Shown here one piece after another: positions 1 to 40,517 of a stretch of 55,072 nucleotides of DNA (positions within the stretch are counted from its first letter, which is position 1; every line of letters starts with the position of its first letter). Where the stretch lies: contig JADGBZ010000016.1 in NCBI GenBank assembly GCA_015231175.1, positions 1-55,072 on the forward strand, in the 5' to 3' direction. A program made the translations under genes and the position numbers. The notes under the pieces were generated by a model. The model did no database searches, was not told the DNA's origin, and saw only the letters and a list, made by a program, of their open reading frames with translations. This DNA comes from Magnetococcales bacterium (GTDB taxonomy: Bacteria; Pseudomonadota; Magnetococcia; Magnetococcales; DC0425bin3).

Positions 1-80
1 GGGTTCGGGGCGAAGCCCTGACAAAGGCTTTCATGTCCAAGCTTTTCTTGAAAGGATCCTGGAATAGTTACAAAAAAAAA
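1..80. repeat. Dispersed repeat, partial copy at window edge
   Basis: The first ~70 bases match the right half of the 232-bp element at 4282-4513: the run from the GGGGCGAAGCCC hairpin arm through the AAGCTTTTCTTGAAA segment and the GGAATAGT box is nearly identical. The left part lies outside the window. The copy diverges after the GGAATAGT box, so the terminal inverted repeat is not recognisable here. It sits directly upstream of the groESL promoter. Confidence 0.75.
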
Positions 81-3502: not shown

Positions 3503-4285
3503 GTGGCCATCAGCTTCAGCTCTATCGGCTCGTATAGCACGCTCGGCTCGCTGTTGAGTAGCCGCTATGGGGTCACAAGTCAGGGTTCCTCGGCTGCGTG
3601 GAACAATACCCTCGCCACGTTGGGTTCTTCTTCCGGGAATGCAGCCGCTTTCAAATTGGGAAACAACCTCACAACGGCCATCAAGTCCTATGGTCAGGCC
3701 ATATCCAGCTCCAATGATGGTGTGAGTCGTATTCAAATCGCCCAGGAGGGACTGGGCAGGATAAACGACAATATGACCAAACTGAAGGATTTGGCGACTC
3801 AGGCGAGTAGCACGACCATCACCCAGACCGACCGGGACAAACTCCAGGCTGCGGCTGACAAAATCCAAAAGGAGAACGATCAAATCATCTCCACAACCAA
3901 GTTTGGTTCGGAGAAGCTTTTGGCGTCGAAGCATAGTGACTCGGTGCAGTCGGGTGTCAATTCCTGGAATACGACGAGCATCTCCTTCAAGGATTTTTCC
4001 AAATCTTTCGCAAAGGTGGATCTAAGTTCCCAGCAGGGCGCCTCGGATGCCTTGGATACCTTGAAGACGAATATGGCTACAGCCGGCAAAGGTGTCGCCG
4101 ATCTCAGCAAAACACGTGCCAAGCTGGAAAGTTCCCTCAACACCATGACGCAAGCCTCCAATTCCCTGTCCAATGCACGCGACGTGACGCTCAGTTTGGG
4201 CAGTCAAGGGGGGCTGGGCAGCGGATCCCTGTTTGGATCCCAGGGTGGTATCGATTCGATGCGCGTCCTGCAACTACTGGGCTAG
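3503..4285 (+). CDS. Flagellin-like protein, copy 2
   Basis: 260 residues, closely related to the preceding gene over its whole core. It shares the RIQIAQEGLGRIND helix, the DRDKLQAAADKIQKEN helix, the GSEKLLASKH turn, a QSGV..W/F.T..ISFKD.SKSF strand region and a C-terminal coiled helix near 195-235. The match to flagellin is clearer here (KLKDLATQAS, SLNTMTQASNSLSNAR). It starts at GTG 3503 behind GGGGAGG. It lacks the conserved flagellin D0 start. The last codon and stop (GGC TAG) lie inside the left inverted repeat of the element at 4282-4513, so the present C terminus may have been set by that insertion. Confidence 0.7.
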   Translation: MAISFSSIGSYSTLGSLLSSRYGVTSQGSSAAWNNTLATLGSSSGNAAAFKLGNNLTTAIKSYGQAISSSNDGVSRIQIAQEGLGRINDNMTKLKDLATQASSTTITQTDRDKLQAAADKIQKENDQIISTTKFGSEKLLASKHSDSVQSGVNSWNTTSISFKDFSKSFAKVDLSSQQGASDALDTLKTNMATAGKGVADLSKTRAKLESSLNTMTQASNSLSNARDVTLSLGSQGGLGSGSLFGSQGGIDSMRVLQLLG

Positions 4286-4513
4286 TGGCTCAACCGTGTT
4301 GATTTGATGTGCAGAAATGTTCCAATGCTCCGGGAACAGCTCAACCATGAAACGGGGTCCAGGGGGCTGGCTCCCTGGCTTTGTCCAGGGCAGCGCCCTG
4401 GTGGGGTTCGGGGCGAAGCCCTGACAAAGGCTTTCATTTCCAAGCTTTTCTTGAAAGAGTGCGGAATAGTCACGAAAAGTGAACACTTCAAATCATGTCG
4501 GTTGAGCCACTAG
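4282..4513. mobile_element. MITE-like element with 30-bp terminal inverted repeats
   Basis: The left end (4282-4311, CTAGTGGCTCAACCG...) and right end (4484-4513) are inverted repeats of 30 bp with four mismatches; the outer 15 bp are exact. The 232-bp interior has no convincing gene and holds nested GC-rich hairpins: CCAGGG/CCCTGG, then CCAGGGC/GCCCTGG, then a GGGGCGAAGCCC fold. The interior is shared with the copies at 1-80, 10190-10242 and 39375-39514. CTAG at both ends is self-complementary, so it could be part of the repeat or a target duplication. It most resembles a non-autonomous transposable element. No transposase with matching ends is visible. Confidence 0.7.
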
Positions 4514-34754: not shown

Positions 34755-36473
34755 ATGAACAATATCTCCTTGACCCAAGCCGATCCATCAGCTGACCTGG
34801 GAGGTGAATCCTCCCGTAACCTCCTGATGCTGGTTTGGGTGGTGTCTCTGACAGTGTCGTTTTTTATTCTGGTTCCCAATTCTGACGACATTTTCTATTT
34901 TGGTCCAGCACTCGGGTTGGCCACCAAGGGGGTTTTGGCTGTGCCCATGGACAACACCAACGTCTACCTGTTTTCCATTTTTGGTACATACTCGTTCTTC
35001 CAGGGAATTTTTCTTTTTGTCACCAACTTGTTGGGACTGCCTGTCCATTTTTTCACCTATCGGTTGTTTCAATCACTTGTTGTTATGGGCAGCCTGGTGT
35101 TTGCCCTGCGTACTTTTTGGCTTGCCCGGCCTGCCGATGTACGAGGCAATGCCAACCGGCAGGCTCTCTTTTTGGGTCTTTTGGCTTTCACCCCTTTTTC
35201 CATGGCGCTTTTGCCTGTGCGCCCGGAATTTTTGGGCTGCCTGTTTCTTTTTGGCGCACTTTCTGCGTTTGGTCGATATGTGCGCAAAGAAACCGGGTGG
35301 GGCAGTCTGCTGTTGACAGGAATTTTGTTGGGTCTATCTGCTGTCTCCCATCCTGTTTTCGCTCTTCCATCCGCTGCCTGGTCCATCGTGGCTGCCTATC
35401 AGCTTTGGCAACGCAAATCGAGATCCCTTGCAGCTCCTTTGTTTCTGCTCTTCTCGGCCCTGCTTCCCCTGTTTGCCATGGCGGCGTTTTATGGGTTGCA
35501 CTACCCGGAGTCGTTGGTGGAAATTCAAGGGCATGGCCGGGAGTTGACCCAGCAGACCGCTGAGTCCAACGCTTTATGGACGGGACTGTTGGAACGTGTG
35601 CGTAGAATTTTTTTACTCGTACCACCGTGGCAGATCCGGGTGCTCGACGCTTTGTTCTATCTGCCACTCTTTGTCATTTTGTTCATGGTTATTGCCGTGG
35701 GTTGGCGCCAGGATGTGCGCAGGTCCGAGGGCTCCCTCGTTCCGGATCGTCCGGTCATGACGCTCATGCCGTTCCAGTGGGTGATCTGGCTCACGGTACC
35801 CCTGTGTCTGTTCTTGGTGTACGACATGCGGATTTTTGACGGGCTGATCGCTTTTTTTGCGACCTGGGCCCTGGCCCACGCCACTGGTGACAGGCTGATT
35901 CTCTGGTCCCGGGGATGGATGGGAGCCAGGGCGAGACGTTTCCTGTTGTGGGTCACTTGTGCCTGCATCCTCGCATGGCCTGCGGCGCACACCGCGAAGC
36001 TGCTCCTTGCACCTGACGCCTACATGAATCCCTTCAAAATGCGCGCGCTGCTCGAACAACTGCCAGGAAGCGTGACCAGCCTGCTGATTGAAAATCCGGA
36101 AGGTGTTCCACTGTTTCTGGGAGAATTGCAGGATACCATTTTGCGAGGGGATCAGGCCCCCCGGAGGACTTATTGGGTTTTTCCCCAACTGGGAAGCATG
36201 ACCTCCAACGAAACAGCCAGCTGGATGATATCCTTCCTCTCCGGCCTCCGGGATGAATCGGGCCGGTATCAGGTCGGGTGGTATTTCAACCGGCACCACC
36301 TGCATTTGAATGATAAAACAGGTCAGTATTGCGCGTCGTTCCCGAAAGCCGGGTACGACGCCGAACTCCGTTTGAGCGGATTTGAAGTGGCCCTGCACGG
36401 TGTCCACATCATCCATAAGGATCGCAGAAATGTCCTCCTGACCACCAACGATTTCTCCCTGGGATGTCCCTGA
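34755..36473 (+). CDS. Polytopic membrane protein, GT-C glycosyltransferase-like
   Basis: 572 residues with about eleven predicted transmembrane helices in the first 430, then a soluble, probably periplasmic, C-terminal domain. The first extracytoplasmic loop has PNSDDIFYFGP with adjacent Asp44-Asp45, the position and pattern of the catalytic acidic pair in GT-C enzymes (ArnT, PMT and relatives), which use polyprenyl-phosphate sugars. I do not recognise a named family. It is divergent from the 4,6-dehydratase gene, so a role in modifying a surface glycan is plausible. ATG 34755 is chosen over an upstream hydrophilic extension. The last 17 codons and the stop lie in a 56-bp sequence duplicated just downstream. 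Confidence 0.65.
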   Translation: MNNISLTQADPSADLGGESSRNLLMLVWVVSLTVSFFILVPNSDDIFYFGPALGLATKGVLAVPMDNTNVYLFSIFGTYSFFQGIFLFVTNLLGLPVHFFTYRLFQSLVVMGSLVFALRTFWLARPADVRGNANRQALFLGLLAFTPFSMALLPVRPEFLGCLFLFGALSAFGRYVRKETGWGSLLLTGILLGLSAVSHPVFALPSAAWSIVAAYQLWQRKSRSLAAPLFLLFSALLPLFAMAAFYGLHYPESLVEIQGHGRELTQQTAESNALWTGLLERVRRIFLLVPPWQIRVLDALFYLPLFVILFMVIAVGWRQDVRRSEGSLVPDRPVMTLMPFQWVIWLTVPLCLFLVYDMRIFDGLIAFFATWALAHATGDRLILWSRGWMGARARRFLLWVTCACILAWPAAHTAKLLLAPDAYMNPFKMRALLEQLPGSVTSLLIENPEGVPLFLGELQDTILRGDQAPRRTYWVFPQLGSMTSNETASWMISFLSGLRDESGRYQVGWYFNRHHLHLNDKTGQYCASFPKAGYDAELRLSGFEVALHGVHIIHKDRRNVLLTTNDFSLGCP

Positions 36474-36548
36474 GGGGGGGCTTTGGAAGGGCCGCAGAAA
36501 CGTCCTCCTGACCACCAACGATTTCTCCCTGGGATGTCCCTGAGGGGG
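36423..36548. repeat. 56-bp direct repeat across the GT-C-like gene stop
   Basis: Two 56-bp copies (36423-36478 and 36493-36548), period 70, differ at one base. The first holds the last 17 codons and the stop codon of the upstream gene; the second is in the short gap before the convergent GGDEF gene. GGGATGTCCC inside is palindromic. Confidence 0.9.
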
Positions 36549-38483: not shown

Positions 38484-40517
38484 TTAGACCTCCTTCCTGA
38501 ACCATCCGACATACCATGGGGGAAGGTGTTGCTCGACCGCATGGGTTGTGTAGAAGCATCGGCCAGCGACGGGGTGGGCGGGCAGAGGTCGATCGGAAAG
38601 ATTGGTCAGCACGGTGAGCCGTGAACCTGTCACCAGACGCCAGGTGACCACCAGAACGTTCCCTGGGTACACGCGCCATCGTCCGGCATTGGCTCCGATC
38701 AGGGAGAGGCATGGGAGAATCTCCCTGCGGCGCAAAGCGAACAGCTCCTTGTGCAGGGCCAGCCATCTCTGGCCTTCCGGGGTGTGCAGGCCGTCCCACT
38801 CCAGTTGCGCCGCAGCAAAGGTGTCCGGCGCCATGGGATGAGGCAGGGGTGGCCAGGATCGCGCATTTTGGAAACGAAAAGAGTGCTCGAACTCCCGATG
38901 GCGCCCGGCAGAGACGGCAGCGGCAAGGTCGTTGTGTAAGTCGCAAAAAAATGGAAAAGGTTGTTGGCAACCCCACTCCTGTCCCATGAAGAGCAAGGGT
39001 ATCTGCGGCGCCAGCAGAAATATCGCCGTGGCAGCACGCACCGCTGCAAAAGGGGCCAGGCCCACGATGCGATCTGCGTTGAGACGATTGCCAACCTGGT
39101 CGTGATTTTGCAAAAAAGAGACAAAGGCTGTGGGGGGCAAATGCGCACTGCTCTCGCCACGCAACCGGCCATCGCGATAGGGAGAAGGTTCGCCCTGAAA
39201 AGAGAACCCCTCGGCCAGGGCACGGCCCAGATGGTGGAGAGGGTGATCCCGAAAATCCAGGTAATAACCTTGCGTCTCCCCGGTCAGCATGTGATGCAAT
39301 ACATGATGCAGATCGTCGTTCCATTGAGCCTGGCAGCGGGGCAGGGGTAACCATTCAGTACCCGGCCACGCTTCGGGGTCCGGGGGGCTGGCTCCCTGGC
39401 GGGTCCAGGGGAGCGCCCTGGTGGAGTTCGGGGCGAAGCCCTGACAAAGACTTTCATGTCCAGGCTTTTCTGGAAGGGGTGCTGATCCAGGTTTTTCTGG
39501 AAGGGGTGCTGAGTCTGGATGCGGCAGATGGGTCTCTCCATCGCGCCCAGCCGGGTGGCCGCCAGGTGCAGATTGTAACAGATGAGCGGCGTTGTCATCG
39601 TTCTCCAGGATCAGGTGAATGTGTCGGTGGGCGCCTGGACCACACCGAACGGCTGCCGCCAACTCCTGCACAATGTGGGGTCTGGAGTCGTCAAGCATGG
39701 CCTGCACGGCATCCAGGCGCAGACCGTCCATGTTGTACTCCTCCAGCCAGTACAAGGCGTTGTGAATAAAAAATTGCCGAATCCAATAACTGGACGCACC
39801 CTCAAAATTCATGGCCACGCCCCAAGGAGTGTGACGGCAGGGGTGGAAAAAGTCGGGCGCCTGGAGGTGCAAAAAGTTGCCCTCTGGACCAAAGTGGTTG
39901 TACACCACATCCAAAAACACCATTATGCCATGCGCATGGGCACAGGCGACCAGGTTTTTCAAATCGTCCGGACGCCCGTAGGTTGCCTCAGGGGCAAAAA
40001 GCAGAACGCCATCGTAACCCCAGCCATATTGGCCGGGAAAATCAGCCAACGGCATCAACTCGATGGCTGTGATGCCCAGTTCGGCAAGGTAGGGAAGGCG
40101 CTGGATGATGCCATGGTAACCGCCGGTGGGGGAAAAGGCGCCGACATGCAATTCATAAATGACGGCCTCGGACCAGGGACGTCCTTGCCAACCGGCATCG
40201 TGCCACCCCCAGGCCAGGGGATTGACAACACAACTGGGGCCGTGCACATCACGAGGTTGAAACCGGGAGACTGGATCCGGTACATGCTGCCGACCGTCGA
40301 TACGAAAAAAATAGAGTGAACCGGCATGGGCCATGCCGGTCGACAAGGTGAACCAACCCTCGGCCTCGGCCTGCATCGGGAGGATGATCTCTCCCTCTGC
40401 CACCGTCAAACACAACTCGACCTGACGGGCCGCCGGTGCCCAGAGGCGGAAAGAGGTGGTATCGTCATCTTGCAGATGTGTTCCAAACGGCATACGATGC
40501 TGGCGGTGCTGGATCAT
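38484..40517 (-). CDS. treZ: Malto-oligosyltrehalose trehalohydrolase with repeat insertion
   Basis: GH13 enzyme that releases trehalose from maltooligosyl-trehalose, the second step of the TreY-TreZ route from glycogen or maltodextrin. 677 residues, longer than the usual ~600. An N-terminal E-set domain (about 10-100) precedes the barrel. Catalytic residues are intact: nucleophile Asp269 in GLRLDAV, acid Glu305 in LILEND and Asp473 in QNHDQ. Between Glu305 and the conserved QWNDDLHH motif there is an extra stretch (about 335-386) encoded by the dispersed repeat at 39375-39514, with the frame kept open. Whether the enzyme works with it is unknown. treY and treX are not in the window. Confidence 0.9.
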   Translation of the reverse strand: MIQHRQHRMPFGTHLQDDDTTSFRLWAPAARQVELCLTVAEGEIILPMQAEAEGWFTLSTGMAHAGSLYFFRIDGRQHVPDPVSRFQPRDVHGPSCVVNPLAWGWHDAGWQGRPWSEAVIYELHVGAFSPTGGYHGIIQRLPYLAELGITAIELMPLADFPGQYGWGYDGVLLFAPEATYGRPDDLKNLVACAHAHGIMVFLDVVYNHFGPEGNFLHLQAPDFFHPCRHTPWGVAMNFEGASSYWIRQFFIHNALYWLEEYNMDGLRLDAVQAMLDDSRPHIVQELAAAVRCGPGAHRHIHLILENDDNAAHLLQSAPGGHPAGRDGETHLPHPDSAPLPEKPGSAPLPEKPGHESLCQGFAPNSTRALPWTRQGASPPDPEAWPGTEWLPLPRCQAQWNDDLHHVLHHMLTGETQGYYLDFRDHPLHHLGRALAEGFSFQGEPSPYRDGRLRGESSAHLPPTAFVSFLQNHDQVGNRLNADRIVGLAPFAAVRAATAIFLLAPQIPLLFMGQEWGCQQPFPFFCDLHNDLAAAVSAGRHREFEHSFRFQNARSWPPLPHPMAPDTFAAAQLEWDGLHTPEGQRWLALHKELFALRRREILPCLSLIGANAGRWRVYPGNVLVVTWRLVTGSRLTVLTNLSDRPLPAHPVAGRCFYTTHAVEQHLPPWYVGWFRKEV
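39375..39514. repeat. Dispersed repeat copy inside treZ, with 27-bp duplication
   Basis: The GGGGTCCGGGGGGCTGGCTC hairpin region, the GCGCCCTGGTGGAGTTCGGG block and the GACAAAGACTTTCATGTCC segment match the interior of the 4282 element in the same order. The terminal inverted repeats are absent. At its right side a 27-bp unit is duplicated (39461-39487 and 39488-39514), which gives a nine-residue peptide repeat (SAPLPEKPG twice) in TreZ. Confidence 0.85.

Follow-up and report, generated by a model that had tools for sequence, protein, structure and literature searches.

The treZ gene of a Magnetococcales bacterium, encoding malto-oligosyltrehalose trehalohydrolase, contains a copy of a dispersed, palindrome-rich repeat between its catalytic acid and the next conserved motif, without loss of the reading frame. 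This raises two questions: how mobile DNA came to encode part of a conserved enzyme, and whether the repeat family behaves as a protein-coding insert in general. The window analyzed here is the whole stretch of 55,072 nucleotides around this gene, complemented by the genome it comes from and those of related bacteria. The preferred answer, to which a probability of about 0.9 is given, is that a MITE inserted antisense into a length-variable loop of TreZ, diverged, and stayed in frame, giving a tolerated, unstructured loop of ~58 residues.

The treZ product scores 640.7 bits against the TIGR02402 profile (curated cut-off 538.8), and the genome has one TreZ locus only. Alignments with TreZ structures cover the protein in two blocks, residues 17–313 and 393–647, separated by an unaligned stretch of ~80 residues. 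The catalytic Glu305, correctly numbered in the initial annotation, sits within LILENDDN, and the conserved QWNDD corresponds to residues 398–402. Asp269, Glu305, and Asp473 are invariant across the 34 sequences aligned, and the 677 codons contain neither a stop nor a frameshift. The presence of a repeat copy after Glu305 and before QWNDD, with an open frame and the catalytic residues kept, is confirmed. The features discussed below are gathered in Table 1.

Table 1. Position of the treZ gene, of the element copies, and of other features mentioned in the text.
Feature	Location	Strand	Remarks
treZ, malto-oligosyltrehalose trehalohydrolase	window 38484-40517	minus	677 aa, ORF intact
MITE copy inside treZ	window 39347-39521	+ (antisense to treZ)	TreZ residues ~333-391
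Left terminal inverted repeat GTAACCATTCAGTACCC	window 39347-39363	+	intact; family consensus GTAACYATTCASCACCC
Core hairpin modules TCCAGGGGAGCGCCCTGG and TTCGGGGCGAAGCCCTGA	window 39403-39449	+	
Core 18-mer of the treZ copy	window 39432-39449	+	
27-bp tandem duplication, right side of the treZ copy	window 39460-39513 (approximate)	+	SAPLPEKPG encoded twice
Partial copy of the repeat	window 1-54	+	cut by window edge
Other core copy	window 4282-4513	+	30-nt IS630-like termini (CTAGTGGCTCAACC...GGTTGAGCCACTAG)
Two 62-nt direct repeats	window 36417-36548		95% identical, 70 nt start to start
Degenerate IS66-type transposase gene	G000:C27:4778-5757		between GTAACCGTTCACCA and TGATGAACGGTTAC
SLFN_AlbA_2 gene	L171:15669-16790 (= L025 site)		IS630-ended repeat form
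Cas9-like ORF	L155:12014-15191		~1000 residues
CheW	L180:4078-4689		tail-bearing
CoaE	L184:15398-16126		tail-bearing
TPR protein	L129:12205-13125		tail-bearing
Unknown protein	L137:9810-10343		tail-bearing

The repeat itself is far from unique to this gene. The 3.81-Mb genome, a draft of 175 contigs, contains 536 core sites on both strands (≤2 mismatches) and none for a reversed-pattern control, and the best other genomic copy matches the treZ stretch with E = 2.9e-42, so that the similarity first noticed at this locus proves significant genome-wide. Complete copies measure 147 or 148 bp, with GTAACYATTCASCACCC at the start and its inverse at the end; these 17-bp terminal inverted repeats (GTAACYATTCA...) are paired in most copies. 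Perfect 8-bp target duplications flank 34 of the 102 copies of the larger sample. In the first sample, flanks were perfectly identical in 10 of 26 copies at a length of 8, and in none at the other lengths among 2–11. As such duplications are a signature of transposition, the repeat is a MITE: short, devoid of transposase, bounded by terminal inverted repeats, flanked by fixed-length target duplications, and dispersed in high copy number.

Three hairpins occupy the element interior. One pair of hairpin 2 alternates between A-T (38) and G-C (26) (pair counts on palindromes), a compensatory switch which argues that pairing is kept; the RNAalifold consensus fold did not pick this expected hairpin, and an Rfam search with the treZ locus and copy matched no family. 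Across the order, the core hairpin pattern has a patchy distribution, with 220 matches in the own genome, 84 and 7 in the congeners G001 and G002, 185 in G004, 161 in G020, and zero in many other genomes; G002 holds further, more diverged copies, visible only by translated search. The same hairpin core is found within two kinds of transposon ends, of GTAAC type and of CTAGTGGCTCAACC type, as if it had been captured twice. Elsewhere in the window, two 62-nt direct repeats lie beside a GGDEF-domain gene.

Insertion sequences of the IS66 family have GTAA ends and generate 8-bp target duplications, and the element is consistent with IS66 on both counts. A literature search on IS66 termini returned no matches. 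In the own genome (G000), a degenerate IS66-type transposase gene lies between termini nearly identical to those of the element; the 8-bp flanks of this remnant do not match, and an intact element was not seen. The MITE was presumably moved by an IS66-family transposase.

The copy inside treZ, initially placed at 39375-39514, extends from 39347 to 39521 in the window. It is an element of the 147 type enlarged by a 27-bp tandem duplication, across which the frame is kept because 27 is divisible by 3. Its right terminus is decayed, and its right end was set by the expected length rather than by a clear target duplication. When the DNA of the treZ loop was aligned to the element, the score was 107, versus at most 22.5 for 500 dinucleotide shuffles. 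The ~50 added residues of the initial annotation hold as an in-frame addition, the size being larger: ~58 Pro-rich, low-complexity residues (333–391) come from the element. With 85.7% identity to the family consensus, below the family median of 91.8%, the treZ copy is probably an old one. No target duplication is recognizable around it (best 5/8, at the expected end), and the exact right boundary and the original frame effect are, therefore, unproven. Of 76 full-length copies, 14 have the frame used by treZ open, and 60 a different antisense frame. As the treZ frame is seldom open, the original insertion required a copy of favorable sequence; it probably also required a minor compensating change, since a newly inserted 147-bp element with its 8-bp duplication would shift the frame.

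The site of insertion is itself prone to variation. Counted from Glu305 through QWNDD, this segment of TreZ comprises 98 residues here; the family-mate G003 and most others have 28, and the congeners G001 and G002 have 42 and 58, respectively. By a slightly different count, the loop spans 22–33 residues in the 67 scorable loci (out of 80 matched) of other genomes. The view that homologues devoid of the repeat have shorter loops is borne out by these 67 loci, but less so by the two congeners, whose loops, without the element, are still longer than usual. The whole excess of ~70 residues is thus larger than the ~58 of the element itself, since the congeners are also longer at this site. Decayed element copies were sought in both congener loops, and the similarity was not significant. 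The 98-residue loop is thus unique among the relatives compared, at a site that is length-variable within the genus. An AlphaFold2 model (built with 33 relatives; mean pLDDT 84.1, pTM 0.86), whose best structural matches in the PDB are 3m07 and 2bhu, shows a confident TreZ fold with a single segment of pLDDT below 50, residues 318–390. With this insert predicted to be unstructured and the catalytic residues all kept, the simplest reading of the element-derived segment is a tolerated, disordered surface loop, presumably without function, in a TreZ that is presumably made and active.

The preferred history runs as follows. A non-autonomous element of 147–148 bp with IS66-type ends most probably entered treZ antisense, in an already length-variable loop after the beta strand bearing Glu305. 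Since then, the copy has accumulated changes, its right terminus has decayed, and an internal stretch of 27 bp has been doubled, the frame being kept. The outcome is ~58 extra Pro-rich residues, in a loop predicted to be unstructured that the TIM-barrel fold would tolerate.

The relation of the family to genes was assessed on 180 copies in 1.254 Mb, one third of the genome, of which 85% is predicted to be coding (gene calls from a simple codon model, hence approximate). Core midpoints fall in a predicted CDS for 10 of the 180 copies, versus ~152 expected. These ten comprise treZ, one SLFN_AlbA_2 gene, five C-terminal overlaps, and three false cases (a misplaced Tex start, a chance core in Cas9, and a tiny ORF). 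Several candidate in-frame cases were discarded: the true start of Tex (L078/L152) lies after the element, the upstream part being antisense; the core matches in a TamB-like protein (L179) and in Cas9 (L155) arose by chance; the frame at L182 is antisense; and the SLFN_AlbA_2 gene (L025/L171) is frameshifted downstream. In this last gene, the reading frame continues through an IS630-ended form of the repeat and is broken by the frameshift ~100 nt after it. Among the sampled copies, only the one in treZ lies in frame within the interior of an intact gene. Copies occur in 35 of the 85 gaps between convergent genes, in 78 of the 342 between tandem genes, and in 24 of the 118 between divergent ones (approximate, codon-score gene calls), a preference for the 3′ ends of genes. 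The family thus stays clear of genes, and where it affects proteins it does so mostly at the termini, with treZ as the exception.

Where the element does reach coding sequence at gene ends, it leaves a recurrent trace. At least four unrelated genes end in a common element-encoded tail of ~31 residues that also brings the stop codon, and four of the five C-terminal overlaps follow the pattern N(Y/D)(S/P)PP..(H/N)(E/K)SGS(R/K)G.AP(W/R)QVQD.VLVGFGAKP*. Alignments of the tail-bearing CoaE (243 residues) with its homologues in G001 and G002 end at residue 211–213, and that of CheW (204 residues) with its G002 homologue at residue 174; as these alignments stop short, the tails come from the element. 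The tail-bearing unknown protein has no Pfam match. C-terminal tails are a second coding mode of the element. That the MITE family is a source of new protein segments, some with a gained function, among them the treZ loop and the recurrent tails on CheW, CoaE, the TPR protein, and others, is unlikely.

These counts bear directly on the proposal of the initial annotation that the family is a protein-coding insert comparable to Rickettsia palindromic elements (RPEs), its copies being adapted to land in reading frames, with treZ as one of many. The frame open in 60 of 76 copies, the in-frame treZ copy, and the tail-bearing genes speak for it. Nevertheless, the avoidance of genes is strong (three of the ten coding midpoints being false), the sole internal insertion in an intact gene is treZ, one among the 180 sampled copies, and the frame used there is open in only 14 of 76. 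Such a family property is weakly supported and the proposal highly improbable; a MITE with IS66-like ends is a better description of the repeat than a relation to RPEs. A trivial origin, in which parts of the contig were joined at a high-copy repeat to give a false in-frame insert, can be imagined in a draft that is split into 175 contigs and holds over 500 repeat copies. However, the flanks together make up a single TreZ, correctly ordered and in frame, with similar identity to the same relatives, which a random join would not produce; the single TreZ locus, and the copy-specific changes and 27-bp duplication that set the treZ copy apart, also make mis-assembly scarcely credible.

Two further explanations concern the fate of the enzyme. 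TreZ may have been inactivated, its frame staying open by luck. TreY is the usual pathway context of TreZ, although not strictly defining, and no TIGR02401 match above cut-off was found in G000–G004, so that TreZ stands without its usual partner in the own genome and its nearest relatives (among them G000, 100% complete; G002, 100%; and G003, 99%, all with TreZ). Moreover, the N-terminal part of TreZ carries six substitutions at otherwise invariant columns (0–2 in relatives), which may hint at a slight relaxation. Against decay, all catalytic and invariant motif residues are kept over 677 uninterrupted codons, and relatives with shorter TreZ loops lack TreY too. The part after the insert is 81.2% identical to G002, versus 82.7% between G001 and G002, and by this comparison is as conserved as between congeners. 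Decay is thus very unlikely. Conversely, the insert might have been co-opted, altering the specificity or regulation of TreZ, e.g., by covering the active-site cleft. It does sit between Glu305 and QWNDD, it is older than most copies by its divergence yet still open, and the congeners also have long loops at this site; but it is predicted to be disordered, is of low complexity and absent from every relative, and neither congener loop is related in sequence to the element, which renders co-option quite unlikely. The tolerated insertion of a MITE is, therefore, retained as the preferred reading.

Outside Rickettsia, the locus offers a clean case of a bacterial MITE incorporated into a conserved enzyme of known structure. 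As the loop adjoins a catalytic residue, the cost of the insertion is directly measurable. The sampled count provides a base rate: 180 copies kept out of genes, save for 3′ ends and one tolerant loop.

Several known systems resemble this one in part. IS66-family insertion sequences and their MITEs share the GTAA start, the 8-bp duplication, and, here, a transposase remnant with matching termini; unlike the insertion sequences, the element has no transposase, and its interior is an unrelated hairpin sequence. TreZ structures 2bhu, 3m07, and 1eh9 share the whole fold and the catalytic residues, but have ~28 residues from Glu to QWNDD rather than 98. RPEs (Ogata et al. 2000, via PMC10969869) are likewise ~150-bp palindromic mobile repeats that can lie in frame in a metabolic gene and add ~50 residues. 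In Rickettsia conorii, nearly half of them are in frame inside genes (PMC10969869), whereas here one in 180 is internal to an intact gene; the clear transposon termini and 8-bp duplication also set the present family apart. In Coxiella burnetii, QMITE1 and QMITE2 (45 and 78 copies) extend over the 3′ ends of functional genes, altering protein C-termini, and internal in-frame cases are rare and reported in hypothetical proteins (PMC5896051). The family described here shares this habit, with other sequences, in another host, with 536 core sites versus 45 and 78 copies, and with a conserved enzyme hit. It thus resembles the QMITEs in habit and the RPEs in the single treZ case: in-frame mobile repeats are known from Rickettsia, but here such an insertion is a rare exception within a family that is otherwise kept out of genes.
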